Part shown: positions 7,051 through 35,496 of the stretch, in pieces
Layout of the letters: every line of letters begins with the position of its first letter
Numbering within the stretch: position 1 is the stretch's first letter
Assembly (NCBI GenBank): GCA_037447655.1
Contig: JBBHKE010003181.1
Span: 83,495-147,494, forward strand
Length of the DNA stretch: 64,000 bases
Reading direction: 5' to 3'
Source: Zygnema cylindricum
Taxonomy: Eukaryota; Streptophyta; Zygnematophyceae; Zygnematales; Zygnemataceae
The notes under the pieces: generated by a model
What the model was told of the DNA's origin: nothing
What the model saw: the letters and a program-made list of their open reading frames with translations, nothing else
Database searches by the model: none
Position numbers and translations under genes: made by a program

Positions 7051-7196
7051 TAAGATTATGAATCTTCTATAAAAATCTGATCAGGAGATGGTGGCTGATA
7101 TGATGACAAAACTAGTGCCTTCTCCCAAGCTAAATTATTATAGAGAAAAGTGTGGACTAAAACTAAAGTTAAAATTAGACTAGAAAATAAAGGGAG

Positions 7197-11672: not shown

Positions 11673-12010
11673 ATAAGAATCAGTTTTGAGTCCGAGAATG
11701 AGGAGGACTCGGTTCTTCTTGAATGGGCATAAGTGAAACGATGATTTCCGATTCAAGGGAGATTCCAGATAGAAGAGATATACCTGAACCACCTACGCAC
11801 TCCGAGGAGACAGAAGAGGAGGAACCGGAACAGACTTCCTTGGATAGGGGAGCAGATGAAACAGTGAGGAGAAATCCGAGACTTCCCTCCATTCCAACCT
11901 CGGATTTTGAAAGAGGGTGAAGAAGCCGCAAAAAGATACAGGAAAAACAGGTCACTCACAAGGTAACTAAATTGTCTCACCCAGATGAGCCTTAGTCATA
12001 CTCGGAGGCA

Positions 12011-13440
12011 GTGAACAGTCTTGAGAGAGACAGATGGGTTAAAGCCATAAATGATGAAATGGCTTCCATCATGGAAGCAAATACTTGGGAACTAGTGGAT
12101 ATTCCCCTGATTAAAAGATTGATTGGGTGCAAATGGGTGTTTAAACTAAAACTCAACCCAGATAATACCATTGAAAGATATAAAGTTCGGTTAGTAGCAA
12201 AGGGGTTCACTCAAAATGAGGGGATTAACTATGAGGAGACTTTTTCTAGTTGTTTGGTTCCCATCGGTAAGGATTCTCCTCAGTTTAGCGGCAGCGGAAG
12301 ATATGGAAATACAATAGATGGAGATTAAGACCGCCTTCCTCAATGGTGAGCTAGAGGAAGAAATCTTCATGCGGCAACCAGAGGGGTTTGTGGAGGAAGG
12401 AGAGGAGAGCAAAGTTTTCATGCTCATAAAATCCTTATATGGACTGAAGCAAGCTACGCGACAGTGGAAAAACATACTAGATGAGTTTCTCATCAGTCTA
12501 GGATATATCCGGATAAGCTTTGGCCATTCTATCTATATGTTTGGGGATGAGAATGGCGTCATTTTTATTGTAATTTACGAGGATGATTTGCTGATATTAA
12601 GTAAGTCTTTGGATAATATCAATAAGTTAAAGAAGGATCTTAGAATCATTTTTGACATGAAGGATTTAGGGGAGGCAAGATATATTTTGGAAATTCAAAT
12701 GGAAGGAGATAGGAAGAAAAATATCATCAGCCTTACTCAAAAAAAAGCAATAGGAAATATGCTTGAGAAATTCCAGATGGATATGGCAAATAGTTGTACC
12801 ACTCCTATGGACTTGAAGAAAATAAGTGATGGGAGTGTAGAAGGAGGAGTGATAATCTTAGATAATCATATGAGTCTAGAAGAGAATTTATGAAGTTTAT
12901 TCCTTACAAGTAGGTTTTAGGAAGTTTAATCTACTTTATGAACTGTACTAAGCCAGACATACCGACAGCACTAGGAGTACTCACTAGGAGTCTTAATGAT
13001 CCTAGGAAGAGAGACTGGGAGGCACCCAAGAGAGTCGTGGGATATCTGGTGGGAACCAGAGAGTTATGGTTGCATTTGGGAGGGGAGCACAGTGACATCA
13101 CAACTTGGAGTGATGCCAGTTATGGGGATGCAGTTATGAGAAGATGTACTTTTGGGTATGTTTTGTATGTGGGGGAAGGTGCTTCCTGTTAGAGCAGCAG
13201 GCAATAAAAGGTGGTTGTTTAGTCTACTATGGAGGCTAAGCACATGGCCTCTTATTCTACTGTGAAAGAGTTGTTGTGGGTTAAGTCTTTGTTGTAAGAA
13301 CTAGGGTATATGAAGGAGGGATTTCATGAAGTGTTTTGTGATAATCAAGCTGCCATTACAATTGCAGCTAATCCAAAACATCATTTCAAAGCTAAGCATA
13401 TGGACATAAGATAAGGTTTTGTGAGAGAAAAAGTTGAGAA
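12011..13440 (+). pseudogene. copia B reverse transcriptase and RNase H remnants
   Basis: The RT starts at RWVKAINDEMAS (12031). It passes the fingers region (GCKWVFKLKLN, about 12127) and the palm TAFLNGELEEEIFMRQPEG (about 12330). In the catalytic box the usual YVDD reads YEDD at 12576-12587. The connection region with CTKPDIPTALGVL follows at 12946 and RNase H at 12990-13420. The sequence STMEAKHMAS at about 13216 matches the RNase H motif in A. A frameshift near 12300 and stops at about 12890 and 13191 disable it. The polypurine tract of this copy sits at 13574-13586. Confidence 0.85.
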
Positions 13441-13586
13441 TAAGATTATGAATCTTGTATAAAAATCTGATGAGGAGATGGTGGCTGAAATGATGACAAA
13501 ACTAGTGCCTTCTCCCAAGCTAAATTATTATAGAGAAAATTGTGGACTAAAACTAAAGTTAAAATTAGACTAGAAAATAAAGGGAG

Positions 13587-14522
13587 AGTTGAAAGTACTA
13601 GATTTATAAGGTATTTTCTAGGTCTAAATATATCAGCAAAATAGGAAAAGAAAAGGGCAAACAACTTGCCTCCACCTCCTCTCTCTAGCCCCCATACACT
13701 TTGTGGTCACTGAAGGTTAAAGAGGGTGGTTGAGCCATGGCTCCCTTAGCTCCACAGGTAGGACTAAAGAGTGACATAAGTCATTCTGAACAAAAGGTTC
13801 AGTACGGCAAGACTCGAACGGCCGACTGACAGCGCAAGGCGTAGCCATCAACTCTAACCGGTCTGTCGTAGAAGTTCGTTACAGTACATGGGGTAGGATA
13901 TTTATTTAAACATTAATATGAACATTAGTCCGATTAACGGAACTACGAATAGTTAACATAGAGACATATTAGATTCAATGCGAGCATCAAATTCGCCGCA
14001 AGAAACAAATGAATCGGACATTTATTTCGACGACGTATATCAAAAGTCAGTGTTCATTCGACGACGCTAATAATCGACGAGGTCCCGGAATGGTCACTTT
14101 GGCGGTTTTCGGACGTGGCGTGACCTGGTGACACATGGCATGATAGAATTGAGCAGCTCAAATCCCGCACGACATGAGGATGAGTTCGAAGGCGACATGC
14201 GTCCACTCCATGGCATTGTCGTACACACGCCGTACAGAAATTACATCAGCCACTGTACTATTTTGTGCTTTACAATCTCCTGATTGGAGCGTACCTCAAT
14301 AGATAGGGGTTGTGAGGGGGGGGGGGGGGGGTTAGGATTTAGGGTATTGGGGAAGGTTGCACCTCTCTCCCAGAGAGCTTGTATTAAAAATTGGCATCTT
14401 TTACTGCCTCATAAATAATAGGCTGGTTGGCCGTTTTGAATGATTTTTTTTTCTACGGACTCAAGGGAGTCCACGCTGCACAAGGGTGCAGTTAGATTAT
14501 CAATTTGTCTACTTAGGCAGCA
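13587..14522 (+). mobile_element. LTR 3 of tandem copia pair A/B
   Basis: It begins AGTTGAAAGTACTAG (TG mutated to AG) after the tract AAATAAAGGGAG and ends GGCAGCA, where similarity to LTR 2 stops. It has a poly-G run at 14318-14330 and a weakened TATA box (TATTAAAAA, 14382). The tRNA-like segment is at about 13801-13830. Its last 32 bp from GTTAG (14491) are repeated at 17220. Confidence 0.85.
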
Positions 14523-14814
14523 GTGGTTTTCGAGCGTGCCTAGGAAACATAGGAGAAGGGCCCACCGCCCGAAATAGAGTGCATGGGGGTCCTTGAAACT
14601 GGGAGGTTTAGGGGAGATGTCCGGGAAGGTGTGCATAGAAAACCTGGAATCCATCCCAAATGCGGATGCGGTTCCGGATGCATGAACATGCCCTTCTCTG
14701 TCCCTCCTTCCCCGGATGTATGCATGGGTAATAATGAGGGATCGAGTGAAAAGAGGAAGAAGTACTCCGAACCCCCCCAGATTTCCCCCCCAGGTGCTTA
14801 TCGGCTAGAAGCCC
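14491..14814. repeat. duplicated junction block, copy 1
   Basis: This 324-bp block contains the last 32 bp of LTR 3 and then a CGAGCGTGCC...GAAGCCCA sequence. It is nearly identical to 17220-17544. The non-LTR part also resembles 18713-18975, which lies just downstream of the gypsy relic's 3' end, so it is probably a piece of the gypsy LTR. Confidence 0.8.
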
Positions 14815-16225
14815 AAACTTCTTTTCTCACTCCGATTTTCTGAACAGTTTTTCTTTATTCTTCTCCTAGTTCACCAATTTTTACTGCCACCTTATTTCTA
14901 GTTTTTGCTTCTAAGTGTCCATATCTTCCTTCAACTCCTCTTGCTTCAGTTAACAAACTTTCTTGTAGGCAATTTTCACTCACAGATTTTGTCATCTGAT
15001 AAGGTCACAGAAATCATGTCCTTCTCTCTTTCGTCCTTCACCACACTATCTTCGGTGACATAACTCCTTCCACCAGTTTCCACATTATACACCTCATTCC
15101 TAATTCCAGTTTTCTTCATATCTTCGCCTTGTCCTTCTAGATAAATTGGGTTTAGTTTATTAGTCTTTATGTTTAAGTATTTTTCGGCTTCCACTTCCAA
15201 GTGACCTTCACTTCCTCTAATTTTTCTTACTTCAAACAATTTTCCTCCTGTAACTCTTTGTTACTCACCAATCTAACGTCTGAAAAAAGGACAAGCACCA
15301 ATTCCTTTTCTGTCACCTCCTCCTTTACTCCATTCCAAACACCACAGAAGGTTGGTAAATACATAAATTTGTCAACACACGGTGTATACCTTTTGTCATT
15401 TGTCGAGTCTTGTCTCTCACTCACAAAAGCACTGGATTCCTTTCTTGTTGGGGTTCGAACTAGGGTGTTGTCCCATCTATCTCTAAACTTCCCTGTAACA
15501 CATGCACTTTTATATGATGGACATACCCTGAAGGTATGTCCTAAATCATTACAGTAAAAACAATTCTTTGGCCGATCTCCGAACTCACTATTACCTTTAA
15601 CTTTCTCAAACTGAGACTTAGATTCCTTTATATTCCATTCACTTGATAAGACCTTTCTATTAGCCTTTTCATCTAGAATAACTCGTCTAGCTACAGTTAC
15701 GCTCCAATCGTTTTTATCAATTAAAGTCAATCGATCTAGTGCACTCTTATATTCTTTGGGTAGACTTCTCATTAACAAGATAGCTTGTTGAGCATCTGTA
15801 AAGTTTCCCCCTGCCAAATCATTTTCTACAAATAATACTTGTAAGTCAATACAGTGTTTCTCCATACTACCTCCTACATACTTGTGTTCAACTATTTTGG
15901 TAACACTACTAAGCCAATGATATAAAGACGTCTTTGCATACATACATTCTAAGCTCTTCCATAATTCAGCTGCTTTTTTAAAACTTAGGTATGACATTAC
16001 CAAATCCTCAGTCAAGGAGTTCTTGATAACTCTTAGACACTCATGATTTTTCCTTTTCCATTCATTTGATGTTTTGGCCAAGGTACCATCCACCACATCC
16101 ATTAGCTCCATCATCTCGAAGTAGCTCTCGAGCGCACACTTCCAGTAGTGATATTTTGATCCATCAAATATAGGTAGCCATGGGTGTGGGCCCATAACCT
16201 GTTGTCCATAGCTTATTTCAGCCAT
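14815..16225 (-). pseudogene. gag of truncated gag-only element E
   Basis: The 332-codon minus-strand frame 16225-15227 is a copia-type Gag. It starts within the LTR (ATG at 16225) and runs through the GQQVMGPHPWLPIFDG motif. An alpha-helical Gag core (LWKSLECMYAKTSLYHWL) follows, then a CX2CX4HX4C zinc knuckle, CFYCNDLGHTFRVC. The coding sense continues in another frame (15239-14976) as a charged Lys/Glu-rich tail like that of element F. No protease, RT or integrase is seen. The element is cut at 14814/14815, where the duplicated junction block replaces its distal part and 3' LTR. Confidence 0.8.
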
Positions 16226-17219
16226 GGATTACTCACGGAAACACCCACAGACTACCTAAAAAACAGCTGTGTTTCAGACGACACATATTACTCCAAAATA
16301 AACAAAATGATCTCAAACTGCACCAATATGCAGTATACCATATACACTATAAACTCCCAAAGTTACAGCCAAATCCACCACGGCATCTAGAAGATATAAG
16401 CTCCAGAGTTTCCCAAAAATAGCTGACAGCTTCACAAACTAACCACTTAGACTGTTCGCGGAATCTTACAGAGAAACTGGAATACAATGAAACTTCACAC
16501 ACATATAGATTATATATCGTAGAATAACTCCACAAAGTTTCAAATGAAAGCACCAATCAGAGTGATCACACCAACAGGTCAAAGATGCAGAAAACAGTTT
16601 GCCATTACTTTGATTAACTTGACTGCGATACATAAAATAATCTAAGTCCTGCAAGTTATACTCATAGTACGGAGGCATACCAGCCGTACTGTATCTACTC
16701 TAATTGCCTAACTAGTCAAAAGGACAAACCTCTATTGTACAGAATATTTACACCGTACTAATAGCCTAACTAGTCAAAAGGACAAACCTCTGTTGTACAG
16801 AATATTTACCCCGTACCCTTCGTATGTCAAAAACTAAGCTACCACTAAGCAACCACTAAGCTACCACTATCGTTTAAGCATCATTACTTGAAATCTATCC
16901 TATTCATATTATCCGTAGTTGCGCTGGCTACGCTGGCTGCGCTTTGCTTATGGATCATAAAAACAACCGCAACTGCGTTGACTTAACTGCGTCGCAGCTG
17001 CTCCGTACCGGCAGCGCCTATTTCAACATTCCGTTTATTTTACATCGGATCGCTTCGCGATCCGCCGTCCATTTGTCATTGCTTGTTCACACCTTTCAAT
17101 GAGTCTTTTACGTAACTTTAATTATCAATCCGTTCGCTCCCCCAATCCGTGAATCTATTCAAACCTCCATATCAAATCCAATTAGTAGCTACGCACGAAA
17201 CTGATTTTTCAAAACAACA
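16200..17219 (-). mobile_element. 5' LTR of element E
   Basis: On the minus strand this LTR starts TGTTGTTTTGAAAA (17219) and ends GGACAACA (16200), the termini seen in element F and in the solo LTR at 19965. It contains the hairpin GGATCGCTTCGCGATCC at about 17046 and an internal 58-bp tandem duplication (16706-16821). Its last 26 nt encode the Gag start. The adjacent GTTAG (17220-17224) is the presumed target duplication; its partner lies at 14491, displaced by rearrangement. Confidence 0.8.
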
Positions 17220-17544
17220 GTTAGATTGTCAATTTGTCTACTTGGGCAGCAGTGGTTTTCGAGCGTGCCTAGGAAACATAGGAGAAGGGCCCACCGCCCG
17301 AAATAGAGTGCATTGGGGTCCTGGAAACTGGGAGGTTTAGGGGGGATGTCCGAGAAGGTGTTCATAGAAAACCTGGAATCCACCCCAAATGCGGATGCGG
17401 TTCCGGATGCATGAACATGCCCTTATCTGTCCCTCCTTCCCCGGATGTATGCATGGGTAATAATGAGGGATCGAGTGAAAGGTGGAAGAAGTACCTCGTA
17501 CCCCCCAAGATTTCCCCCTCTGGTGCTTATCGGCCTGAAGCCCA
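17220..17544. repeat. duplicated junction block, copy 2
   Basis: This is the second copy of the block at 14491-14814, including the last 35 bp of the copia LTR (GTTAGATTGTCAATTTG). It starts exactly at element E's LTR end. See the findings for the proposed exchange between occupied and empty alleles. Confidence 0.8.
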
Positions 17545-18712
17545 GCAAATGGTACACTCCTGAATATTATCCAAAGGATGGAAAGGGAATGCTAGTCCTC
17601 CGATCCGGCCCACAAGACTTCGGACGGAAAACAAGGTATATCACAACAGTGCGCAAATAACTCCCACGTTGAAATATAGAAACAATAAATATCAGCTATT
17701 TCAGATTAAACAATATCACCTTGCCCCAGAAAATAGAAATAAATATAGAAATAAATGAAAATGGTGAAGCAAGCTCACATACCCCGGAGTGCAACGTAGA
17801 AAAACTTAGAGGAAAAAACCTCTCCACATTGCCTCGAAGACTGATATGATTCTCCCTCAACCCTCGGTTCCGCCGTACGGATCCGACCAAACTTTTCTAA
17901 GTTTTAAATAACGAAAGTCCAAACGGCCCAAAGAGAGGATAGTGCCAACCATCCCCCCGAGCTACGATTTCCACAAAAGACAATCCAAAACAAAGATGGC
18001 AATAGAGTTCACGACACAATGCAACAGTTCTCCAATAGAAAGATTGATTGTATTTCTCTGGGGGTTTTCTCATGAGACACTACTGAAAAAGCAACCTGTC
18101 CCCTTCGGCCCCAAGCGCCTTATACCAACCAAGTTTGTCCTACTTCAAGTGCCAAGTCAAAACTATACCAGAAGCCAATCAGCGGCCAAAAATTGTTATC
18201 GTACGGGCATAAGACCAAACAGGCTGTACTACACTTAGGGCAAAAAGTTAGGAGACTAGCTCTGGGTGGATTTGAAGCCAAATGTCCTCTTATGATACAC
18301 TCATGAGCCACAAAGTCTTGAAATGACGTGAAACGCCTAACTTTGACCAAAAGTTATAAATGCTTTGCCCGTTTGGTGGACCTGAACTAACATCCTACTG
18401 ATAGCTAACAACAAAATCTACAGGTCTATCCCAAAAGTTACGTGGCGTTCCACAATGTACCCCCCACAAGGACAAGTGGAAACCAGTAGCACGTAACAGA
18501 ATGGAAATCTTTGAAGCGAAATAACTCTGCGTCTGACCTCCGTTAGGCGTGAAATAAAGTGCTTTCCGTTCAGTTTGGTAAGTAAAAAGATTTTCTCAGG
18601 CGGGGTGCACTCACGCCTCCGTACTTTGAGGACGATACTGGTTCAAAAGGGTTCGGAAATCCTTGGTGAAATAAAGGTGTGTCGGAAACGAACACGAGCC
18701 TGATAGTTGTCG
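17545..18712. other. non-coding DNA, probably decayed repeat
   Basis: I recognise no gene, RNA or element terminus here. The frames are short and unlike any family I know. The position between two pieces of the presumed gypsy LTR suggests retroelement leader or LTR debris. Confidence 0.4.
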
Positions 18713-18976
18713 AGCGTGCCTGGGAAACTTATGAGAAGGGCCCACCGCTAGAAATACAGTGCATTGGGGTCCTGTAAACTGGGAGGTTTAGGGGAAGGTG
18801 ATGTCCGAAAAGGTGTGCATAGAAGACCTGCAATCCACCCCAAATGTTGATGCGGTTCCAGATGCGTGACCATGCTTTTCTTTGTCCCTCCCTTCCCCGG
18901 GGATATACATGGGAAATAATGAGGGAGCGAGTGGAAAGGGGAAAAAGTACCCCGTACCCCCCCAAATTTTACCCCC
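18713..18976 (-). repeat. presumed gypsy 3' LTR segment
   Basis: It is a third copy of the CGAGCGTGCC...CCCCCC sequence also found in the junction blocks. On the minus strand it directly follows the gypsy coding region, after a purine run GACTAAGAGGGGGG that could be the polypurine tract. LTR ends could not be fixed. Confidence 0.5.
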
Positions 18977-19001: not shown

Positions 19002-19187
19002 TTAAGACAAATAAGCCGCTAAACTTGTTGTCCCCACAGAACCACGGATTTGTGCTTTGAGAGCAAAACTGCGAAGTCGGCGGCAGGTAGAAGTCATGCC
19101 ATCCTTGATGAAAGTGATCTCACACCGAGACGAAGCTGGGCAAAAATGACACATTGCAGGTAGAGGAACACGGGGGTGGATTTGCAA
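19002..19187 (-). pseudogene. PHD-finger-like tail of the gypsy polyprotein
   Basis: Two overlapping minus frames hold fragments that together resemble a PHD zinc finger, a module that reads histone tails. One frame gives MCHFC near 19164. The other gives HQGWHDFYLPP (about 19110-19078) and PWFC (about 19045-19034). These match the spacing of the consensus C-x-x-C, then C-H-x-G-W-H, then L-P-P, then W-F-C. Several zinc ligands are mutated and a stop falls at 19120-19122. A plain decayed spacer is the alternative. Confidence 0.35.
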
Positions 19188-19189
19188 AG

Positions 19190-19356
19190 TAAGTGAGGTG
19201 GAAAGTGGGTTCGTCCTCTAGCCCTCGTAAATGGCAAAGAGCCACATTGATCTGGTTCTCCTTAATTTTGTGGCCATCCTTTCTTTCCAAGATCAAAACC
19301 CCTTTGTTGAAGACCTCCACTACTTTTAGAATCACTCGTCCGGCCGAAATGTCCAA
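19190..19356 (-). pseudogene. gypsy integrase C-terminal region
   Basis: The frame reads RVILKVVEVFNKGVLILERKDGHKIKENQINVALCHLRGLEDE. This resembles the small beta-barrel domain following the integrase core in plant Ty3/gypsy Pol, which helps bind target DNA or chromatin. I do not see a typical aromatic-cage chromodomain. Confidence 0.55.
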
Positions 19357-19532
19357 ATGAAGTATGGGCTATAGGAATGGAGGGAGGCTTGCCTAGTGAA
19401 TCTGTATCCCATGGCAATCGAAGGCACCCGTCTATCCCATTCCCCTAAATCTTCCTCCAGTGCATATTTTCGTAGTGACTGCTTCACTTTCTATACCCAC
19501 TTTTAGGCCAAACCGTCGGCTTGGGGGTGGTC

Positions 19533-19964
19533 TTAGCTGGTCAACCGGTGGTTAATGAGGCACTTCTTGAGAAGGTTAGAAAATTCTCTAGCAAACTCGG
19601 ATCCTTGATTAGTCACAACTTCGGTTGGGGCTCCAAATTGGGACAGCACCCTCTGCAAGAATGCGTCCGCGATTGCTTTAGATTCCTTTCGAGGGAGGAC
19701 AACCACTTTGATCCATTTGGAGAAGTGTTGAATCATTACCAATATAATACAGTTTCCCCTTCGGCTGGTAGGAAGTGGTCCTAGTAGATCAAATGACCAT
19801 CTATATAACATCCCCCGGATGGGTAGGTAGTGAAGTTCAGTTCCACCCTTCTTGTCAAAAACAACCTTCACGTGGTCATAGGAAAGACACGTCTGCACCA
19901 CACGATTGACCTGGGCCCGCAACCCATGCCACTTATACGACCCTGTGACCAGTGAGGTGGTCCG
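19533..19964 (-). pseudogene. gypsy integrase catalytic core
   Basis: The frame 19922-19533 is a retroviral-type integrase core. It has the first catalytic Asp in YRWSFDLLGPLP (about 19800-19765), the ILVMIQHFSKWI strand, and the second Asp position in EVVTNQGSEFA (about 19620), where the usual D reads N. It joins its N-terminal part on the far side of the solo LTR 19965-20891. The third catalytic residue (Glu) would lie past the end of the frame at 19533. Confidence 0.8.
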
Positions 19965-20891
19965 TGTTGTTTTGAAAAGTTAGTGTCATGCATACGCGAC
20001 ATTTTGTGCGTACGCAAAATTTCGTATGCAACGTATTAATTGGATTTACTGTGGAAGTTTGAAATTAAAGTGGCGTGAGCGGCACTTATTGGAAAAGGAC
20101 GCCGACAGTACGGACTAATTTGGTTGAGGTGAAGTCAGCTCGTCAAGTGGATTGTGTGACCACTCGACACGACATCAAGGATGTCGAATAGGATCTACGG
20201 ACGGCGGCGCCGTCAGTTTGGTGAGGGACGCGAAATCGCGTCCATCACATGATATATATTTTGGACGGCTCCGATTGGTTTGACGGAATTCGTAAATATT
20301 TGACAATGTTTTGTCCTGTGTATTATTTAATAGTGTAGATCTTAAATTCACTCGCATTAATAGAGGTAATTGATTGATTACGTACGGCTGGTATGCCTCC
20401 GTACAGTTAGTTGTAAGCTGTAGTGTATATTTGTAGAACTTAGTCATTTTTAGACTTAGGAACTTTTTGGACAAAAACTGTTTTGCTCCTTTTTTGGTAA
20501 TTTTTAATTGAGGATTGCTCTCAAATGTATCGGCAGAATTATCTGAAATTTTGCATGTGCGTTTCTCCTTGTATTGGCTAAATTGTGGCAAATTTGCAGA
20601 CTTATTGTGCGTGTGGTTTGCTTGGGGCTTCATTGTGAAGTTGGTCAGATTTATCAAAGTTCTGGCAGGCAGTTTTTCTGCAACTTTGACTGGGTGATGT
20701 GGGAATTCTGGTTTGTATATTTATATGAAATTTGGTGGGAATACTAAGTGGCCTAGAAAATATCTGTTTGTGTAGTTTCATATTGTTTTGGTAATTCTGT
20801 AGAATTCTGAGTGGAATCAAAGTAGGCTGTTTTGGGTAGTCTGTGGTGCTTCCGAGGGGAAATCCATGGCTGAAAACGGCTATGGACAACA
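19965..20891 (+). mobile_element. solo LTR (E/F family) inside the gypsy integrase
   Basis: This 927-bp LTR begins TGTTGTTTTGAAAAG and ends GGACAACA. It is flanked by perfect 5-bp direct repeats GTCCG (19960-19964 and 20892-20896). Removing it rejoins the gypsy integrase coding sense. Its 3' end carries the ATG (20867) of the LTR-encoded Gag start, here with a 1-bp deletion relative to E and F. It is the product of recombination between the two LTRs of a gag-only element. Confidence 0.9.
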
Positions 20892-21220
20892 GTCCGTTTT
20901 TTTCCAAAGTACCCGCATTGGTGGTGAAGACGAAAAATGAGGGTTTCCCAATCTGCCGTAGGAGGAACCACTTTCCTCGTACCATCGGCCATTTTTTGAG
21001 AAGAATGCCTCAGTCCCATTCAAACGTCGCCATCTGGGTATGAACCTGGGATAAGTGAATTCCGGCCAGGCGGGGAAGAGGGGAACCTCTCTAGATAGAC
21101 CCAAGGGAATCGGGGTCATTCCAAATATCCTTGAGGCCGGCTCCAATGGGAGCCTGCCCCTAAACGTATGCAGCAAAGATTGACAAATTTCCTTCACCTC
21201 GAGGCAACCAAATAAAGGCA
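20892..21220 (-). pseudogene. gypsy integrase N-terminal zinc-binding domain
   Basis: Minus frames around 21019-20892 show TRKVVPPTADWETLIFRLHHQCGYFGKKRT. This is the His-His part of the HHCC zinc domain that precedes gypsy integrase cores (normally HxxxGHxGxxKT). The solo LTR then interrupts it. A frameshift separates it from RNase H upstream. Confidence 0.75.
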
Positions 21221-21792
21221 TAAGAAGCCCTGATAAGTCCCAGGCTCAACTTGGGGTCTTTATCGTGCCGCGCCTTTGTAGAGTCTTTGGTGGAAGGGTT
21301 TGGATTCTTGCTGAGTCTATCTGCATTCCCATGGATCTCCCCGGCTCGGTGGATAATGTTGAAGTCGTATTCTTGCAAGATGAGAACCCATCTGGCCAGC
21401 TTGTCGGTCAACTTACTGTTCTCCATTATCCATTTGAGGGGCTGATGATACGTAATAAGGGGGAGGTATACTCCATAGAGGTAAGGCTTGAAATAATAGA
21501 TGGCCCACATCGCAGCAAGTAATTCCCCATGGTAACTGCTATAATTCCCCTCGGCTCTGTTATTACTCCGGCTTGCGTAGGCCACAACGTACTCAGCCCC
21601 TGCATCGTCCAATTGAGCCAAAACTACTCCCAATCCGAACGTGCTCCAATCAGTATAAAGGAGGAAAGGCCGCTGGTGATCAGGCATCCGAAGCACAAGA
21701 TGCTGCTTGAGGAAATCTTTCAGGAATTCAAAAGCAGTCTGCTGTTCTTCCGCCCATCGCCACTCTTGGTCCTTTCGCAATAATTGATTCAA
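21160..21792 (-). pseudogene. gypsy RNase H domain
   Basis: The 210-codon frame holds a Ty3-type RNase H. The first acidic residue is in LLYTDWSTFGLGVVLAQ; then YASRSNNRAEGNYSSYHGELLA, where E is the second catalytic residue; then ITYHQPLKWIM, where the third (usual TDH) reads TYH; then the HRAGEIHGNADRLSKNP end. It is nearly uninterrupted, with its active site damaged at one position. Confidence 0.85.
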
Positions 21793-21795
21793 TGG

Positions 21796-22509
21796 CTAGG
21801 CGTGGCTAGTGAATTTGGGAATAAACCTACAGTAATAGTTGGCTAGTCCCAGGAAAGTAGGAAAAGCTGAAATGTCTTGTGGGGGTGGAAAGGCGTCAAG
21901 GGCTGCCACCTTAACCATGTGGAAACCCACTGTCCCAAGAGTCACCTCATGTTCTAGATAAATGATTTTCTGCACCCCAAAAATACCATTCCCTGAGTGA
22001 CCCTTCAAGCCTGCTGCTTGGAAAGCCCGTAGAACGATCTGTATATGCTCCAAGTGTTCGTCGAATCTCTTATAGAAAATAATCACATCGTCGATTTAAC
22101 ACCCTGCGCAATGGATTCCCCGAAAGGCCTCGTCCATAGCCCGTTGAAATTTGGCAGGTGCATTTTTGAGGCCAAATGGCATGTATAGCCATTCATACAA
22201 ACTCGATCCGGCCGAAAAAGCAGTCCTCTCTCGGTGCTTCGGCTCCATTGCAATCTGGTGAAACCCATTCTTCATATCCAACGTAGAGTAAATGTTAGCC
22301 CTAGCAAGAGAGTCCAAGATCTCTTTTGGGGTGGGCATGGGATAACGGCCGGAGACATTTGCCGCGTTGAGCATCCGATAGTCCCCACACATCCGAAAAT
22401 TTATTGTTTTCCTGGATGAGTCTTTCTTTGGCGGGAGCACTGTTGGAGAGGCAAACCCATGTAGCCCAGCACGTTCCTGCACCTGCCCCGTGTCCACCAA
22501 AGTATCCAC
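21796..22509 (-). pseudogene. gypsy reverse transcriptase
   Basis: The RT lies in two frames. 22509-22096 carries FASPTVLPPKKDSSRK and FRMCGDYRMLN, then YSTLDMKNGFHQI (first catalytic Asp) and YMPFGLKNAPAKFQRAMD. 22086-21796 carries the palm-to-thumb part ending FLGLANYYCRFIPKF. The invariant Y of the Y-I-D-D box is a TAA stop (22096-22098); I-D-D follows intact. The copy is therefore inactive. Domain order RT-RNase H-integrase identifies Ty3/gypsy rather than copia. Confidence 0.9.
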
Positions 22510-22551
22510 CTTTACGGTGATGAACTCCTTCTCCTTAAAGCTTAGAGGGTA

Positions 22552-22990
22552 CTATTTCTGCGAAACAGTTGCCGTCTCGTCCATCACGTCAATGCGAAAA
22601 GGGGTCCACTTATAGATCCCTACATCTTTGTCAGACCAAGAGATGACCTGCACGTTCTCCTCTAATAGCTTGGAGAGCCGGGCCTTCTTTTGTGGGTCTA
22701 GGTGTTCCCCTAAAGTCCAGTCCATCTTCCCGGGTTCCACTGCCGCCAAGGCTTTCGGTGGCCGACCCCAAAGGGAGATGTCCAATTCCAGTTCTACTTG
22801 TGGGTTTGTCCCTTGCTCAGCTGCTAAAACGCTACTGCTGACAACTTCCAATAAGCTGCTCGTTCGGAGCCTTCGCTCCTCCCCACTGAGGAAACTCCTG
22901 GGTTCGGTTTTTCCTCTGAATGTAATTTGCTGAATTTTTCCCTTCTTGCCTCTCTCCCCCTCTTAAGCTGTAGAGTTGCTTGCAGGCCAA
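22552..22990 (-). pseudogene. gypsy linker upstream of RT
   Basis: This is the hydrophilic segment before RT, reading VELELDISLWGRPPKAL, then KKARLSKLLEENVQVISWSDKDVG. In plant gypsy Pol the corresponding region, with its HxxVFAWSxxDMxGI-like motif, links the upstream domain to RT. No protease D-S/T-G motif is visible between it and the methyltransferase region. Confidence 0.65.
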
Positions 22991-23705
22991 CAACTGTGGA
23001 GCTTGAAGGTATCTTGCCAGTGACTTTGAAGACTAGAGGCTTGAGAATGCCATAGAATAATGCAGCACCCATGAAATTGTATTCAAATCCATACTTTGCC
23101 CGATTAAACTACACCCTTTTGAGGCCAAGACCCTGTGTGCTGTTGTGGTTGCCGGTCGAAATCCCATTGCTTGTTAGCGTTCCTCAATACTTGGTGCCGT
23201 CCAAGTAGCGGTCGTTTTGTCAAAGATAATCCGTGGTGTGCCTTTTTGGTAATTATGGCTGTTAGGGAAAGATACCATGGTCGGTAAGGCCCTTCGTGGG
23301 TTCTCGGGTTTATTGCAACTGAAAAAGGGGGTACGGTCGGCTGTGGTCACAAGGGTGGCCATTCGCCCTAGACCGAGAATTTGTTGAATTGTAATGTTCC
23401 GATCCGGAACATGTGTTTTCAATAGTTGTAGGAGGATGGGAAGTGGAGCCAAGGTGGTCCAATAAGCCCGAACTCGGTGGGCTCTTGTTCCGACATGAGC
23501 TGCATCAAACACTATGGGATTCTCGAAAACCTTGGACACTTGGTTCTAACTGTTGAATCTTGTTTCCTTTTATCATATATGGGGTGAACATTTTCCAAGA
23601 CATACCCTATTGGTGTGTCCTAGCGAACATGTAACCATGTTATCAGTTGAGTCATTTGAAAAAATGTTTTGCTACGGACATCTTGGTGTTCCCTGCCCTA
23701 TCCTG
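22991..23705 (-). pseudogene. C-5 cytosine DNA methyltransferase-like domain in the gypsy Pol (N-truncated)
   Basis: A DNMT3/DRM-like cytosine-5 methyltransferase C-terminal half. Such enzymes transfer a methyl group from S-adenosylmethionine to DNA cytosine. Motif VI is GYVLENV (ENV codons at 23595-23587). A DAAHVGTRAHRVRAYW segment (about 23507-23459) matches the motif VIII arrangement of DNMT3, aromatic after R-x-R. GRMATLVTT, MVSFP and EER/AMGF segments (to about 23155) follow, then a motif-X-like GQSMDLNTISWVL (about 23100-23063). A frameshift lies between 23587 and 23539, with stops near 23620 and at 23174. The catalytic Pro-Cys motif IV and SAM-binding motif I would lie beyond 23705, where copia C's LTR cuts the element, so it is inactive here. 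It sits in the sense and order of the gypsy Pol, directly upstream of RT. Confidence 0.78.
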
Positions 23706-24602
23706 TGTTGAAATTAAAAGGTTTTCTTATGTATTTTCTAGGTTTTTTAAGTAATCTACAATGAGGAAGGAAAATGCAGAGGCAGCATGCTTGTAACCTC
23801 TCTTTCTAGCCCCCATACTTGCCGTAGTCACTAGAGGCTGAACAAGAAACTAAAGCCATGGCTGCCTATAATTCTCCTAGAGTCAGGGGGCAACTCTTTG
23901 TTAAACTTATCAAAAAGGTTAACGGACCTAAGATTTGATCCTAGTACTTAGCGTTCGTCCAATTAGCCCAGCGTGGTTACCATGTAGCATAGCACCTGTG
24001 TTGAATTATATAGGGTACGATAGCTACTTAAAGACGCGGAAATAGGAAAGTTCATTTAACTGACTAATGGACCATAATCACATAGACATAGTTAGATAGA
24101 ATCACATCGAAAAGTAATGCTTGTATTTTAACGGCTATAAATTAAGACCGATATCAATCGGACGGCGGAGAAAGAAGCATGCATCGCTGAATGGACGATT
24201 TGGCGGTTTGCGGTCACAGCCACGCCAGGTGACACGTGGCAATATGACATTCGATGGCGGCATCTCCGGGACATACCATGGCAAACCCGGATAAGGCAAA
24301 CGTCATCTTCTTGGCCATGTCGTACAATGGCCGTATAGAAAGTCTTCTAGACAAAGTATTTTTCTATACTGTACACTGAATTGATTAGTTCCGTACTTCA
24401 GTAGTAGAGGGATAAGAGAGGGGTTCAAGACTTAGAAAATAATAGGTAGCAGCCTCTTTCCCAGAGAGCTACTGTATAAAAGGTCATCTTTGACCATTGA
24501 TAAGTAACTACTCACTGGAGCAATTTCAAGGATTTTTTTTGTGGCAGACTCAAGGGAGTCAACTCTTTCAAGGGGTAGAATTTGGTCAGTCTGTATTCTG
24601 TC
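23706..24602 (+). mobile_element. 5' LTR of copia C (LTR 4)
   Basis: It starts TGTTGAAATTAAAAGG, the family terminus of A/B, and follows the same internal order: AAAATGCAG and TAGCCCCCATACTTG segments, TATAAAAG at 24475, CTCAAGGGAGTC near the end. Divergence from LTRs 1-3 is clear. The right boundary near 24602 is approximate. Confidence 0.75.
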
Positions 24603-24707
24603 AAGGTGTCAAAAATACTCATACAAAGACTAAGGGATTGAGGTTATCCTTGAGGCTTTTGGTAAGCTGCCTACTCTGAGTACCAATAGAGGTCTCACAG
24701 TTGCATG

Positions 24708-26750
24708 TTATGGGCCCACCCTCTAGGGTGCCCATATTCAATGGGACAAGGTTCATCTACTGGGAGAGTATGATGATAGGAGCCCTATGTGAGAAAAGAT
24801 TTTGGGGAATAGTGAGTGGACGAGTAAAGCCCAGCCGGTCCTGCTATCCCTCCAGGGTTTGTGGGAAGCAGATTTGGTAGGAAACTAGATCCACCGCCAT
24901 CAGAGGACTCAAAAGACGGAGAAAGCATCGTGATGGAAAAGGGGAAAGAAAAAGAGAAAACCACACCTATAGCAACCGGATCTTTTTTCATGTCTCCTAT
25001 TTTGAGGAATGAGGGGAATGACATCGATACATGGGACTACAACAACATGGCGGCCAAGCATTTTATCCTTCGTCATCTCACAGAAAGACTCGCAGGTCCT
25101 CATTTGCAGGTGGAAAGGGCATCCGATTTGTGGGATGCGCTTATAAAGTTTTACCGTAGCGGTACTTTTCAGGAACAGAAGCTAGCAGATCAAAGGATCA
25201 ATGGATATTTTCACAAAGGACAGAAGATTCTTGATTTCTGCAATGAGTTAGCTATACTCTTCATGGAGTTAGAGTTTGCGGGAAAAGTAGAAACCGAGAA
25301 GGCAAAGGTTCACTGCTTACTCATGAAACTACCCGATGAGAATGAGAACATTGTGAACTGGGTATAGGATCTGCCGGACTCCAGGTGGATATGGAATTCG
25401 GTAGGTTGTATGATCCTCGTACGAGAGAATACAATCGAAATCCGGAGGGGAGTTAAGAGTGGACAAGCCCTGGCGGCCAGAGCAAGTTGGAGAAACAAAG
25501 ATTCACGAAAACTCTTTGGAAGTCATGGAGGGGAAGACTAGAAAAATCAATCCGATGAGTCCGGAATCAGGGGATCTATGGGACTTTGTCATTTTTGGAA
25601 GAAACCCGGGCATTACATGCCAGAATGTACCAAACTGAGTGAGCTTCGGATAAAGGAGGGGCAGAACGCGGGTCAGCCACGAGGGAAGAAAAAAGCACTT
25701 GTAACACAGGTTCTCGAGGAGGAATCCGACGAGGAGGACGACGAACTTCTTTTGGATGAGGAGATGGAGGCAAAGACAGAAGTCGAAATCCACGGAAGCA
25801 AAAATGTGCTTTCGGTGGACTAAAAGGTGAACGAGGTTGGATTGTGGATTCAGGTGCCTCCATGCACATGTGCAAGGACAAGCATCTGTTCACTAAGCTG
25901 AGAAAGATCCCTACAGTAGAGATTAAATATGGGGATGGGAGGGTAGTTACCACTACTTATGTAGGATCGGTAGATATGAAACTCACAGTGGAGGGAAAAG
26001 CCTCAATAATTACGTTTTGCGATGTATTGTTTATTCCGGAGTTAAACAAAAACCTTATCTCTACATCTGTATTAGATGATAAAGGATTTGAAACTAGCAC
26101 CAGAAAAGGAGTTTTTACAGCTAGTTTTGAGGAAAATGTGTATTTCAGCACTGAGAAAGGTAGCCTAAGAATGTTTTGACTTTCTTTAAGTAATGAAAAA
26201 CTCAAACTTTACTATGCTAGTGTCAATGATATTATGTTGTGGCATAAGAAACTTGGGCATGTGAATGTAGAAAAGCTAAAATGAATGAAAAAGATGGGAG
26301 TAGTTGAAGGGATATGTTTTGGGGAAAATGAGAATTTAAGTGATTGCAGCGAGTGTGCTCATGGTTAAGCACACAGATTACCATTTCCAAAAAAAGCTAC
26401 TTATAAAGGAGAAAAAGTTCTTGATTTGGTACACATGGACATTCGGGGACCGGCAAGAGTGCCATCACCCGGAGGAAACATATTTATGCTAGCCATTACC
26501 GATGATTGGTCTCGTTACTCTTGGGTATACTTTATGAAAAACAAATCTGAAACTCTAGAGTATTTCAAACAATATAAAGCATGGGCCGAGAAGCTTCACG
26601 AGACCTCAATAAAGAGAGTAAGAAGTGACAATGGAGGGGAATATACCTCCAATCAGTTTGAAGAGTTATTAAAAGAGGATGGTGTGCAACTTTAAAAGAC
26701 AGATCCAAAAAACTCGGAACAAAATGGTGTTGCCGAGAGATTGATACCTA
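24708..26750 (+). pseudogene. copia C gag, protease and partial integrase
   Basis: This third copia element of the A/B family ends abruptly in integrase. Gag begins at the MGPPSRVPIFNG motif (24708), and the main Gag frame is 24861-25367 (LILRHLTERLAGPHLQ, ASDLWDALIKFYRSGTFQ). The knuckle at about 25587 reads CHFWKKPGHYMPEC; the second cysteine is Trp (TGG). Protease active site: IVDSGASMHM (25838-25870). Integrase shows VHMDIRGPARVP and RSDNGGEYTSNQFEELL (26426-26695), including the first two catalytic Asp. It stops after QNGVAERL (about 26740); RT and RNase H are absent. Confidence 0.85.
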
Positions 26751-26789
26751 AGGTCCGCCAGATTAGCTGGTAGCCGGTAGCTTTATCTT

Positions 26790-27438
26790 ATAGTCTAAGA
26801 CCAGTACTAGATTATATAAGGTAGGATACCTATATAAACATTGTCAAAGAATTATGCTTTATTCAACAGATTACAAAACGGACTATACACGGAAATGAAT
26901 TAGACCGCATGAATTCCAGACCGCACGGAATTTAACGAAACGACATTTTATTTCGACGGTCAGTATTAAATGTTGGTCTTCATCGACAGCTGTGGTACGA
27001 GCCAAAATTCCGGATTGACCACCTTGGCGTTTTCAGACATGGCGTGACCTAGGGACACATGGAGAGAAAACATTTAATCGGGAGAATTCCGGGGAACATA
27101 AGGACGAGTGAAATGCGGACACGCGTCCACTTAATGGCCTTGACGTACACCAGCCGTACAAAAAGTACATCGGCTGTAGTAACTTTTGTATGGTACAGTC
27201 ATGTGATTGGTTCGTACCTCAATACTAGGGGGCTTAGAGAGGGGTTTTAGGACTTAGAATATTTTGGTAGGTAGCCGCCTCTCTTTAGAGAGACTCTACT
27301 ATAAAAGGTTAACTTTGGCCAGCCATATCTAACAACTTAGTTCACCAAATTCAGTGATTCTATTTGCTGCGGACTCAAGGGAGTCCACCCTACATAAGGT
27401 TGTAATTGGTCAAAGTGTTTGCCTACCAGGATGGCTGC
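26790..27438 (+). mobile_element. partial 3' LTR of copia C (LTR 5)
   Basis: It matches the 3' two-thirds of the A/B-family LTRs: GGTAGGATACCTATATAAACATT, CGACGGTCAGTATTAAA, GGACACGCGTCCACTTAATGG, TATAAAAG at 27300, CTCAAGGGAGTCCAC. Its 5' third and the pol 3' half are deleted together. I find no target duplication of the left flank TCCTG. Confidence 0.75.
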
Positions 27439-28511
27439 ATTTCTAAGGGAAAGTCAAAGTGGGGTATGTTATCGAAAACGCATATTCTAACTTTGCATTC
27501 TGTGGTGTAACTGAGCACACATAAAGTCTTATTTCACAGAGGTGAAGCTTTAATGATGTTTTGATTGTCAAGGGGTCAATCACTTGGGTTAAGTATAAAC
27601 TTGGAATCGACACTATCTAGATTAGCTTATTTCGACTTGCCAATTCAATGTGGCAATAGAGCCCCTAGGATTACAACTAATTGATTCATATGGGACGTGA
27701 CACTTCATACATAGACGTACTGCTTAAGGTACGGAAAGGATGAGGGCAGGAGTAAACTCGGTACGGCATTGTAGGACAAGAACTCCACGGCTTCGAACTT
27801 GACAAATGTCAAAAATCATGAACCCTCGAAGGTTCATGCATTATTATTGCTTAGTTTAGGAAGGAATTTTATTCGTGAGGTGTAGATGTAAGACATCTCG
27901 AGGCGGCCATACAGCGGCTGTCTCCAAAAACTAGCAGCGTTAGAACATACAAACGTGCATGCTCACAGACAATTAAGAATTACTGTAGTCGTACTGTTAC
28001 TAAATGCAATAGATAAATGCCATTTGGCAAGTTAGAGACTTTTGCAAATTAAACACGGGAATCGAACATTCGAAGATTGTCGTTTTCTCGCAAGCATTAT
28101 TCTCGGGATTTGTCAAACTTTGTGATAAGTTAAGGTTTCACTTGAATACTTAGCGACAGGCTAGTGTTTAGGTTAGGGTTTTTCTCAAGAACCATAGTTT
28201 CTTCTGGTGAGTGTCTCTAGGCTTTCTCTTATTTTTTATACCAAGTCCTTACCTAATATACCAGCGCAAGCGAGCCTTTAAGGATTCCCTCTAGACCATC
28301 GTCTACTTGCTGTGGTGTGTGAATGGTGTTCTGTGGACAAGGAACCTTCTGTTGTCAAAACGCAGACTATATGGCCGGTTGTCGTCTACATGCAATGGTG
28401 TGTGAATGGTGTTCTGTGGACTTGGAACCTTTTATTATCACAACCCACATTGTAGGCCTGGTTCTCATTGTGACTGGCCTTGATGGAATATCGGCTATCT
28501 CGGCTCCTTCG
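27439..28511. other. non-coding DNA with an 80-bp imperfect duplication
   Basis: I recognise no gene. I searched the minus strand for the missing N-terminal part of the methyltransferase and did not find it. Near 28311-28432 a GTGTGTGAATGGTGTTCTG segment occurs twice, followed each time by GGAACCTT, an imperfect tandem duplication of about 84 bp. Confidence 0.5.
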
Positions 28512-29606
28512 TGTTGTTCTACAACCACCGTTGCAGGAGGAGGATCAGCAGTAGTAGTGGAAGTAGACATAGAAAACAACAGAAGCTATCAACCACCTAC
28601 TCAACAGCCAACGTACAGCTTACACAAAATATGACTTAAAAGACTAATATGCCTCAAATTTCTTAAAATAATACACAACAGAGTAAACGGGCAATTCCCA
28701 AAATTGGTTCCCAAATGACCCAATAAACCATAAGATATGACTCCTAGAAGTTTCCCAAAAACTACGCTTAAAAATATCATAATCCCAAAACTAGATGATA
28801 AAAAATTGTCTAAGTCCTAAACTATATACTCACGGTGAGTATCTACTGGTCACACTAATACGGGTGACTCTAAAACAGTACTATCTTGAATAACGACAAA
28901 GTATCAAGCCTGTACTTTAATGTACCGTGAGTACCTCCAAAAACCTAATAATAAAATTCCAAAAACCTAATTAATGAAACACTAATTTTTATTACACTAA
29001 ACTAGAAAAAAATGTTCTCAAATATTTTCAGATGGCGAACCGTACAATAAACGTTCCAGGTGCTTAGTCACAATGGTCGCTAAAGTCCAGCCGACTGTCC
29101 TAGTGTAGTACGAAGCACCTGATTGCTTTGTTACTTGTGGTCCCACGTGAATCATACTTCGTCACTTGTGGTCCTACGTGAATCACGCTTGTGGTCCTAA
29201 GAGAATCGCGTCTGTTGACACGACTTGAAATTAATGATAATATTAACGTACCATACCAAACATTTCCGAAATATCCGGACGTTTCCAATAAAATGATCAT
29301 AAAACAACCGTAGCATACAATTCCAAAATATCTGTATAATTCCAAAAATACTGTACCATATATTTTTCAAAGTATCCGGACCAGGTTCATTCCGTCTGAT
29401 CCGGCAATTCCAATTGTCAACTGGGTGACGCGTGTCGGTCGCTACTCTGTAAAACGTGCAAAGGTACAATACACTCTACTATAATTTTGCTACTGTAATA
29501 CCAATAAAGGTAAGTATTACATAAAACTACTTGGTAAATATTCTAATTCTTTTTGGTCTCCTCTGACAGCCTTATCTACTGAATATAAAGATTTTAATTT
29601 TTAACA
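28512..29606 (-). mobile_element. solo LTR (D-type family)
   Basis: Begins TGTTGTTCTACAACC and ends TTTTAACA; flanked by CTTCG (28507-28511) and CTTTG (29607-29611), a 5-bp duplication with one mismatch. On the minus strand it carries an intact open frame from ATG (28570) to its edge, 19 codons ending V-V-V-E-Q then CA, homologous to the solo LTR at 36220. No internal element sequence is present. Confidence 0.7.
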
Positions 29607-30218
29607 CTTTGTTCAGCTAAGGAAGGGTTCTCGCATGTTGGTTAGACTCTTGTAGGGAATATTAAAGACTTCAGGGCTTAGTGGTTACTGTCGCAAATAT
29701 AGAAATCCCATCCTTATTTACCTATCCTTGTTTTATTTTTGTTTTTGCTGAGTTGGTGATGTTTGTCATGTCGCACTTTTTTAGCATATTTATGTATTAT
29801 TTTTTTGTAGTATCTTTGTTTTGTAACTCTGGTTATACTGTACATATGGAACATTCATTCATATTTTGGTGTTTATGGGCGACTCAAGCTAGATTAGATG
29901 CATGCCATTCACGTTTGTATTGCCATGCACGACAGGGTATTGAATATTAAAATCTTTTGAAATTTGAATGTCAAAATAAGGTACAAATTTTAGAAAATTT
30001 TGAAATCATTTAATGTGCACTGTATGTAGTAATCTTAGTTTAATCAGTGCTTGTTATGCGCATAGGACATCAATATTTTTAGTTTTTAAAAATCACTTTT
30101 TTCTTATGAATTGTCAGCTATAGGCCGGGTACAACAAGTATAATATGGATAACAACGATATGAGATGCCGGACAACCAATAATTATGCATAGTGTACACG
30201 TCATATGCACGATTTTCA
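29607..30218. other. non-coding DNA
   Basis: AT-rich. The 89-codon frame at 29681-29950 is hydrophobic and low in complexity and shows no family resemblance. I cannot support a gene. Confidence 0.45.
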
Positions 30219-30990
30219 CAAGAAATAGATGATGAATGAGATGAGGAAATGATTTTTTTTTTTTGTTTGGACGTGAATCACCCTTGACATCATCCCACGT
30301 CAACAAAAATGTCGCGATGAGATCCATATTGCCGTAGGATTAGGCGGCGATGACTCAAATCCGTCCGTACCAAACCATCGTTTTTCACTCGTAAGAAATG
30401 GGGAGGACGTTTCGTCAAAGCTCTAAATAAGTTTTAAGTTTACATTTTTTTATGATCTATTTTAGATGATTTTGATTGGCTGTTTGAAAGTGGGTTAGCA
30501 TTTTAAAAAGTTTCGTTACAGTACGGATCATTCATTCGGGATACGACTTCTCGTTTTTTCAAAGTCGAATTTATGCATTCCGAAAAGTTTTTCCGAAAAA
30601 GAAGATGATTTACCATAGTTGTCAAGTTTTGACGCACTTGACCTTATGTTTTGTCCGTCCCTACGCTACAAAAAGGTTGACAGTCGAGCGGTCGACCTGT
30701 TTGGCGCCTATGTTTTTGTTTTTTTGCGGAAGGATTGGTACTAGATTATTCGTTTCCTCATCTCATTCATCATCCATTTCTAGTGTGAATCGCGCAATAT
30801 GTTGCATTCACACTAGAAATGGATGATGAATGAGATAAGGAAACAAATGTCTTTATTTTTGTTTGGACCTGAATCGCCCTTGACGTCAACCCACGTCAAC
30901 AAAAACATCGCGATGTGATTTATCTTGTTGTACGATTAAGTGCCGATGACTCAAATCCGTCCGTACCAAACCATTGTTTTTCACCCGTAC
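30219..30990. repeat. direct repeats around a 39-bp-arm palindrome (possible MITE)
   Basis: About 165 bp at 30225-30400 recurs at 30820-30985 (GAATGAGAT, CCACGTCAACAAAAA, TGACTCAAATCCGTCCGTACC). Between them 30751-30836 is an inverted repeat. Arms of about 39 bp (CATCCATTTCTAGTGTGAAT and its complement) have a single mismatch around a 15-bp loop. The palindrome end also matches the start of the first direct repeat, as when terminal inverted repeats of a small DNA transposon are juxtaposed. Confidence 0.65.
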
Positions 30991-31469
30991 AACAACATAT
31001 AATTTTTCCTAGGTGACCGCTGAAGACCCCCGAACAAAAAGGGACGCTTAAAAAAAAAAAAAAACCCAAACAAACCTCACCCAAAAAGAAAAGTGGCGAC
31101 AAAATCAAGCAACGTGCAAAGTCTTGATTGATCTAAAGCGATTTGTTTATACCGAATCCTTACGGATTCGACGCTGAAAGATCACGCCGGATGGTTCTCT
31201 TTTACGCGACCTGGTTTTATTACCGTCGAGCGCAATCGGTATTTTAATTCAATAGCCACAGGATTTGATTATGATCTTTCCCCTTTGTCCTCTTTTTCCT
31301 TTTTTTAAGCGGTCTTTATCCCTCGCCTCGATTTGAAGTTTCACGCCCACGCCTCTATTTTGCCGGAAGCCTCCTCCCTCTCCTTTATCCGGATCCAAAT
31401 TTTATGATCCCAGCCTTTGATCCATACCCCCATTCCGCAAAGTTCTTATCTATCCGCAGATCTGCCCGC

Positions 31470-31580
31470 TCCTTTTATCCCTCCCTCCTTTCCTCCTTCC
31501 CAGGATGCCCTCCCCTCCCTCTCTCCCTCCCTCTCTTCCACCCTCTCTCCCTCTCTCTCTCCATCACTCCCTCCCTCTCT
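31470..31580 (+). repeat. pyrimidine-rich CCCTCTCT tract
   Basis: A C/T-only run of CCCTCCCTCTCT units, like the leader of the DUF952 gene at 58934. No credible start codon with a conserved frame follows it, although a TTTGTTTGCAG acceptor-like sequence stands at about 31705. It may be a relic 5' leader. Confidence 0.5.
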
Positions 31581-31803
31581 TTTATTTCTTCCATTACTTC
31601 TTTATTAATTTATTATTAATTCACTAATAAACTGATTGACTAGCCGAGCGAAGTACTCAATCCGCATTCACCAATCATTTCATTTTTTTTGTCTTATTCT
31701 TCTTTGTTTGCAGGGTATCCTCCCACGTTATCCGCCGGTCCTCCTTACACGTGTCTGGATCCCATGTGTCCCATGTGTCCCGAGTGCTACCAGTGCTAGG
31801 GGA

Positions 31804-35327: not shown

Positions 35328-35496
35328 TGCCTTGCTATATGTGAATGCCATAACTCTTCCCACGTACACTTTTGTCTTTATCTCCTTTGTGATTTATCAA
35401 GCTCGTCGCTTATGCGAATCCTGTCTTCTAATTAGGTTTATGTGGTCCTAGAATCCTTAAAGTTACCTGAAACGTTTGACAAAGGTCAACAGGTCA

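Follow-up and report, generated by a model that had tools for sequence, protein, structure and literature searches.

A window of 64,000 nucleotides from the alga Zygnema cylindricum (contig JBBHKE010003181.1, forward-strand positions 83,495 to 147,494; C2387:83495-147494 in our genome search) carries on its minus strand the remains of a Ty3/gypsy retrotransposon with a cytosine methyltransferase (MTase) directly upstream of its reverse transcriptase (RT). Judged from its sequence, the MTase of this relic is the C-terminal part, from motif VI onward, of a DNMT3-type C5 MTase, and the relic is assigned to a family of the KnitGypsy-Dnmt3 kind, first described in Klebsormidium nitens (de Mendoza et al. 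2018, PMC5890265). The original prediction, made from the letters of the window alone, had proposed that the genome holds, or once held, a gypsy family encoding its own de novo MTase. A gypsy family with a DNMT3-type MTase of its own is indeed present: in two copies elsewhere in the genome (C1374 and C544), the PC of motif IV, the ENV of motif VI and the RT lie in one Pol frame with no stop between them, the arrangement that an intact copy had been expected to have.

The sequence blocks on which the prediction was based were all located before the gypsy RT and in its sense. VLENV, containing the ENV of motif VI, lies in the minus-strand frame of 23706-23560, and AHRVRAYW (the A-H-R-x-R-x-Y-W block), the TMVSFP block, AMGF and GQSMDLNT follow in that order in the minus-strand frame of 23554-22955. 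The predicted interval of 22991-23705 does hold MTase, but the match is wider (23706-22955) and the relic as a whole much longer. Relative to the Pol of C1374, the MTase part has 5 stops and 2 frame changes. The profile search proposed for a C5 MTase gave a mixed outcome. The open 123-amino-acid fragment by itself matched no Pfam family, and in PDB it reached DNMT3A at an E value of 0.29, with an unrelated protein in the top row at 0.28; since the fragment alone scores near nothing, a simple profile search would miss the MTase. A 172-amino-acid stretch of the relic MTase, however, returned a sole protein from a database search, P0001 (5.6e-39, 43% identity, 99% coverage), a 685-amino-acid Joint Genome Institute (JGI) metagenome protein with PF00145 (DNA_methylase) and PF00078 (RVT_1). 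The motifs missing from the relic, motif I and PCQ among them, are present in P0001. The relic MTase also matches the 1520-amino-acid Pol frame of C1374 (6.9e-88, 70-71% identity), sharing sense and order with RT, RNaseH and integrase. As sequence matches, these resemblances are far beyond what chance would be expected to give. The idea that there is no MTase at all, and that a degenerate frame merely resembles one, would fit the poor scores of the fragment alone; it is refuted by the matches to the RT-bearing P0001 (5.6e-39) and to the intact frame of the same genome (7e-88), and its probability is negligible.

The label given to the MTase, “DNMT3/DRM-like,” survives in its first half. DNMT3 is nearest in both sequence and fold (8e-22), with DNMT2 far weaker (2e-5). 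A DRM-like origin was rejected, as motifs I to X run in order and are not circularly permuted, and DNMT3 lies far ahead of the DRM2 chains; the 50-row fold comparison has no DRM entry, an absence that excludes nothing. The same similarities bear on the conceivable action of the MTase on RNA (genomic RNA or primer tRNA), in the manner of DNMT2, and not on DNA. A location just ahead of RT in Pol would put the enzyme in the particle together with RNA, but the clear preference for DNMT3 over DNMT2 makes such a target very unlikely. The catalytic Cys is Pol 162 in C1374 (PCQ at Pol 161-163) and the relic starts at Pol 168, so the cut falls just downstream of this residue, which the relic has lost. 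This agrees with the earlier view that a copia element, whose long terminal repeat (LTR) apparently starts at 23706, had cut off catalytic motifs I and IV.

The genome searched comprised 352.8 Mb in 2689 contigs. As host markers, PsaA/PsaB turned up in it only as four short fragments, one of them equally close to PsaA from many lineages, and the 5S rRNA positions were uninformative. Two copies, from stretches containing no N, were scanned with Pfam. C1374 encodes one 1520-amino-acid Pol frame in the order MTase-RT-RNaseH-integrase-PHD (DNA_methylase at 8.2e-13, RVT_1, RNaseH, H2C2, rve and PHD), and C544 has the same Pol domains in one frame of 1525 amino acids. The PHD match (PF00628) falls below the Pfam cut-off in both frames (0.0044 in C1374, 2.4e-4 in C544); in PDB, the tail of C1374 matches the PHD of MLL3 (3.5e-4) and ATXR5 (0.0026). 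This PHD finger is an addition to the element as originally described. Ahead of the C1374 Pol is a protease frame (PF13650 at 2e-4, below cut-off), preceded by a 594-amino-acid frame that has no Pfam match, is called gag by place only and resembles part of P0066 (6e-9). In a divergent copy of the same genome, L036 (C2678), motif IV is ECQ and not PCQ, as it also is in P0035 and P0057; the nearest relative of L036 is P0069 (39%). Matches to PF00145 also occur within open frames of 2395 amino acids (C1344:90357) and 1757 amino acids (C1407:188074), which perhaps represent a second lineage whose single frame covers a larger share of the element.

Of four places checked for flanking repeats, two (C1374 and C1974) show an A-coding-B-A-B arrangement. 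The A repeats of C1374 (20612-21797 and 35682-36866) are 97.8% identical and its B copies lie at 31308-31632, 35349-35680 and 36868-37084; in C1974 the A repeats are 94.5% identical and B copies flank one A on both sides. The arrangement was not found at C544 and C161, the pair at C161 being another repeat, and the relic keeps the coding-B-A-B end. The start of the A repeat, TGTCAAGC, and the end of the B repeat, GCTCGACA, are near-complementary, and no clear target-site duplication was seen at A-start/B-end in two copies.

The family is numerous. Searches with P0001, PF00145, RT-RNaseH and MTase only scored 65 of 3967, 123 of 782, 89 of 4556 and 111 of 1918 candidate places, respectively, and all resulting counts are lower bounds. 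The 71 rows obtained with P0001 represent at least 65 copies with adjacent MTase and RT, 59 of them in one stretch and 6 as neighbouring pieces; among the best 65 of 3967 candidates, 6 of the 59 single-stretch rows are stop-free and 53 carry stops. Some open-frame lengths in the genome tables, such as 5743 amino acids for C961, may be swollen by masked bases. The MTase-only search found at least 111 places. A genome-wide RT search, which had been suggested as a route to full-length copies, gave at least 89 RT-RNaseH copies, including the relic (C2387:104846-106282, 84%). Among the matches listed, 57 of the 89, relic included, are preceded on the same strand by an MTase at a distance of up to about 3.5 kb (46 through P0001 or PF00145 matches, 10 more through the MTase-only search, and the relic).

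The PF00145 search gave at least 123 places, 103 of them away from the P0001-found copies; some of the 123 may be host genes. Four of the 103 were viewed; RT is present at two, and none lies within 3.3-3.5 kb at L033 and L035. Loci of this kind would allow for MTase pieces without RT, and thus for an MTase acting beyond the element's own DNA, on host chromatin, rival transposons or infecting DNA viruses, with the element or the host gaining by the suppression of rivals. An antiviral role of transposon-encoded methylases is proposed in a passage of Morozov 2019, and DNMT3 domains of dinoflagellate retrotransposons, according to the relevant part of PMC5890265, methylate CGs of the yeast genome and of a plasmid when expressed there. 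On the other hand, the MTase is in one frame with RT in the copies studied in depth, albeit copies picked with an RT-holding query, and the K. nitens methylome is described in the same paper as ordinary and plant-like despite such elements. Action of this broader kind is considered unlikely.

Work on selection used Nei-Gojobori pairwise comparison of 19 copies and the relic (190 possible pairs, restricted to Ks of 0.02-1 and enough codons). The median ratio of nonsynonymous to synonymous substitution (Ka/Ks) was 0.25 for the MTase (50 pairs), 0.18 for RT (50), 0.23 for RNaseH (57) and 0.20 for integrase (34). The Cys of motif IV is retained in 17 of the 18 copies covering the site (it is lost in L014), and the motif residues are near-invariant over 29 relatives. 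The catalytic motifs of the MTase have been kept, and the MTase shows purifying selection.

The explanation that we favour, with moderate confidence, is a DNMT3-carrying gypsy family of the KnitGypsy-Dnmt3 kind that uses its MTase for self-methylation. The family MTase would be a de novo cytosine MTase, either released by the element's protease or remaining on Pol, and it would methylate cytosines on the element's own complementary DNA (cDNA) or fresh insert. The PHD finger on the integrase tail could read the histone H3 tail and steer integration or the writer. Early self-methylation might then keep the harmful expression of new copies in check, or hide the cDNA, which would help the element to persist.

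Several findings weigh against this explanation. Among the matches listed, 32 of the 89 RT copies have no upstream MTase, and no frame upstream of the C544 Pol, the protease frame included, has a Pfam match. Single-pair Ka/Ks maxima reach 0.82 for the MTase, 0.61 for RT, 1.15 for RNaseH and 1.16 for integrase, the method is simple counting on partly dead copies, and the figures lean to better-kept copies because these were taken from the top of a ranked list. Moreover, the MTase diverges faster than RT (Ka of 0.18 versus 0.025 for L009/L011). Eight copies have observed/expected CpG ratios of 0.53-0.68, no lower than the 0.50-0.69 of three copia stretches in the window, though most 10-kb flanks are higher (0.65-1.01); the MTase elements therefore show no CpG footprint of their own. 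Finally, methylation by the KnitGypsy-Dnmt3 domain was not detected in yeast, a result termed inconclusive in the pertinent section of PMC5890265.

Some of these findings would also suit an MTase that is a passenger, kept by being in frame with RT and of no benefit: the faster evolution of the MTase, the 32 RT copies without one among the matches listed, and the stops in 53 of the 59 single-stretch rows (best 65 of 3967 candidates). A passenger would sit poorly with a median Ka/Ks well under 1 and similar to that of RT, and with the near-invariant motif residues and a catalytic Cys kept in all but one of 18 copies, and it is regarded as quite improbable.

Relatives, gathered in sets of 64 proteins (query included) and 43, include proteins of Marchantia polymorpha, Calypogeia fissa, Closterium and K. 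nitens (KFL_009030040). The last, P0095, is partial and a family member (8.8e-50) in the order MTase-RT-RNaseH-integrase. The named liverwort proteins number six from Marchantia and one from Calypogeia; five of the six Marchantia proteins show the MTase as their only element domain, and the sixth (P0045) also has RNaseH and integrase. Over 103 proteins, the MTase precedes RT in K. nitens, Closterium and others, as in the copies of this genome, and 51 show the MTase alone. A second order, RT-RNaseH-MTase-integrase-PHD, occurs in 13 proteins (P0074, P0078, P0081, P0082, P0083, P0088, P0089, P0091, P0092, P0093, P0096, P0097 and P0098) and in fragments.

Quick trees of MTase and RT were built with no outgroup. 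In a 100-row MTase tree, all 20 second-order rows fall on one branch (99 by Shimodaira-Hasegawa-like approximate likelihood ratio test, SH-aLRT), which also takes in ten MTase-integrase fragments and two rows that have the MTase alone. Three copies of its own genome group with the relic at 100, and another two copies of that genome branch close by. In 35-row trees with many weak forks, one change is enough to separate the orders on the MTase tree (support 71), and two are needed on the RT tree. P0095 stands among the MTase-before-RT rows in both trees, although the RT tree leaves these rows partly apart, and in the MTase tree K. nitens has a separate branch together with its metagenome kin. 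As to individual relatives, precomputed Pfam matches give the Pol of P0093 a chromodomain as well as a PHD finger in addition to the MTase, and P0101 (1608 amino acids) combines a C5 MTase with a Dam N6-adenine MTase domain. P0004, a family member filed under a bacterial metagenome-assembled genome (MAG) name (Obscuribacterales), is probably from a contaminant contig. A viral source was also considered and rejected, as an IMG/VR scan with P0001 confirmed no relative.

In the window itself, the feature is the 3′ portion of a dead Ty3/gypsy element and extends past integrase and PHD as far as the terminal repeats at 17320-18962 (Table 1). Pol 1316-1406 of C1374 has no tblastn match in the relic. 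No gag, protease or N-terminal MTase was matched in the 64-kb window by tblastn with the C1374 and C544 proteins, and none was seen by eye in the frames of 27300-31000 on the far side of the copia element. The LTR pair of this copia is 71% identical over 24301-24566/27124-27391, the right LTR being apparently truncated. An extra copy of the B repeat of the MTase-gypsy occurs at 14591-14752, within a short duplication (14489-14815, 94% to 17218-17544). The window is dense in nested copia, with two copies 88% alike at 3594-7838 and 9979-14240 and further LTR pieces.

Table 1. Parts of the MTase-gypsy relic and the adjoining copia element in the window (Pol positions are those of C1374).
Feature	Position	Strand	Basis
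B repeat, outer copy	17320..17480	minus	blastn 71%
A repeat, LTR-like; first ~240 bases unmatched	17530..18466	minus	blastn 81% to C1374 A repeat
B repeat, internal copy	18801..18962	minus	blastn 72% to C1374 B repeat
C-terminal tail with PHD region (Pol 1407-1520)	19015..19356	minus	tblastn 71%; PHD named on C1374 and C544 frames
Integrase (Pol 1109-1315)	19356..19976	minus	tblastn 83%; rve 2.9e-11
~0.9 kb without Pol match, splitting integrase; parts are repeat DNA recurring elsewhere in the window	19977..20890		gap between tblastn pieces
RNaseH-integrase linker and start of zinc-binding domain (Pol 1079-1114)	20891..20998	minus	tblastn 78%
Gypsy RT plus RNaseH (Pol 471-1081), interrupted by stops	20989..22821	minus	tblastn 82% identity; Pfam RVT_1 6.5e-17, RT_RNaseH 4.8e-30
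DNMT3-like MTase, motifs VIII-X plus the linker after them (Pol 219-418), in a different frame	22955..23554	minus	tblastn 70.5%, E 6.9e-88; P0001 43%, 5.6e-39
DNMT3-like MTase, motif VI part (Pol 168-216)	23560..23706	minus	tblastn 71% identity
Copia element cutting off the MTase; 5′ LTR apparently starting at 23706 (TGTTGAA; boundary by eye)	23706..27402	plus	LTR pair and alignment with other LTRs

Retrotransposons that carry the enzyme used for their silencing are a puzzle posed in 2018 for one charophyte and for dinoflagellates. A 2025 survey refers, in the part concerned, to DNMT3 in streptophyte retrotransposons, citing de Mendoza. No such elements are described in bryophytes in the literature searched, which comprised titles and abstracts with supplements and subscription papers outside its scope, and the relevant passages of Marchantia and other bryophyte papers make no mention of them. 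What is new relative to KnitGypsy-Dnmt3 is the many copies, the PHD finger, the named liverwort proteins with an MTase and the second domain order in other relatives. A broader proposal, put forward only tentatively, is that of an old gypsy lineage of charophytes, liverworts and probably other green algae, with a writer (DNMT3) and a reader (PHD) in one Pol, in which the writer moved between two Pol sites (before RT, and between RNaseH and integrase), fixing the epigenetic state of the lineage's newly inserted copies, which could be numerous enough to shape the host methylome. If true, it would overturn both the printed statement that land plants are without transposon-encoded methylases and the view of the K. 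nitens capture as local. Because this genome has a large set of such elements, some of them with uninterrupted frames and one whose terminal repeats have diverged by about 2%, it allows individual copies to be compared in selection, age and methylation.

Comparison with known systems places the family closest to KnitGypsy-Dnmt3, which, as set out in the relevant parts of PMC5890265, has a DNMT3-type, unrearranged MTase in the Pol open reading frame of an LTR gypsy, DIRS-like A-coding-B-A-B repeats around gypsy domains, and purifying selection on the MTase. Common to both are a DNMT3-type MTase in one Pol frame ahead of the gypsy RT (C1374 and C544, with the relic colinear), gypsy RT, RNaseH and rve integrase, unrearranged motifs (in the copies here, I-IV-VI-VIII-IX-X along increasing Pol positions), the A-coding-B-A-B repeats (C1374 and C1974) and purifying selection on the MTase. 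P0095 is a K. nitens relative by descent and may be the element of the paper. The family here differs in its C-terminal PHD, a term absent from the main text of PMC5890265, with none found in the partial P0095, in the extra B repeat of C1374 and in the number of MTase places, at least 111 genome-wide. SymbioDIRS-Dnmt3 and SymbioLINE-Dnmt of dinoflagellates are also retrotransposons with DNMT domains, and SymbioDIRS likewise shows two domain orders, by the account in PMC5890265; their backbones are DIRS (tyrosine recombinase) and LINE, whereas the backbone here is gypsy with an rve integrase. Membership in DIRS was rejected, as an rve integrase stands in place of the tyrosine recombinase. Compared with the catalytic domain of DNMT3A/DNMT3B in PDB, the MTase here is embedded in a retroelement Pol, with the PHD finger at the far end. 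Chromoviruses are gypsy elements with a chromodomain, a histone-reader type of domain, C-terminal after the integrase. The family shares with them a domain of histone-reader type C-terminal of the integrase; it differs in that this domain is a PHD, the Pol frames of C1374 and C544 having no chromodomain match, and in the MTase upstream of RT.
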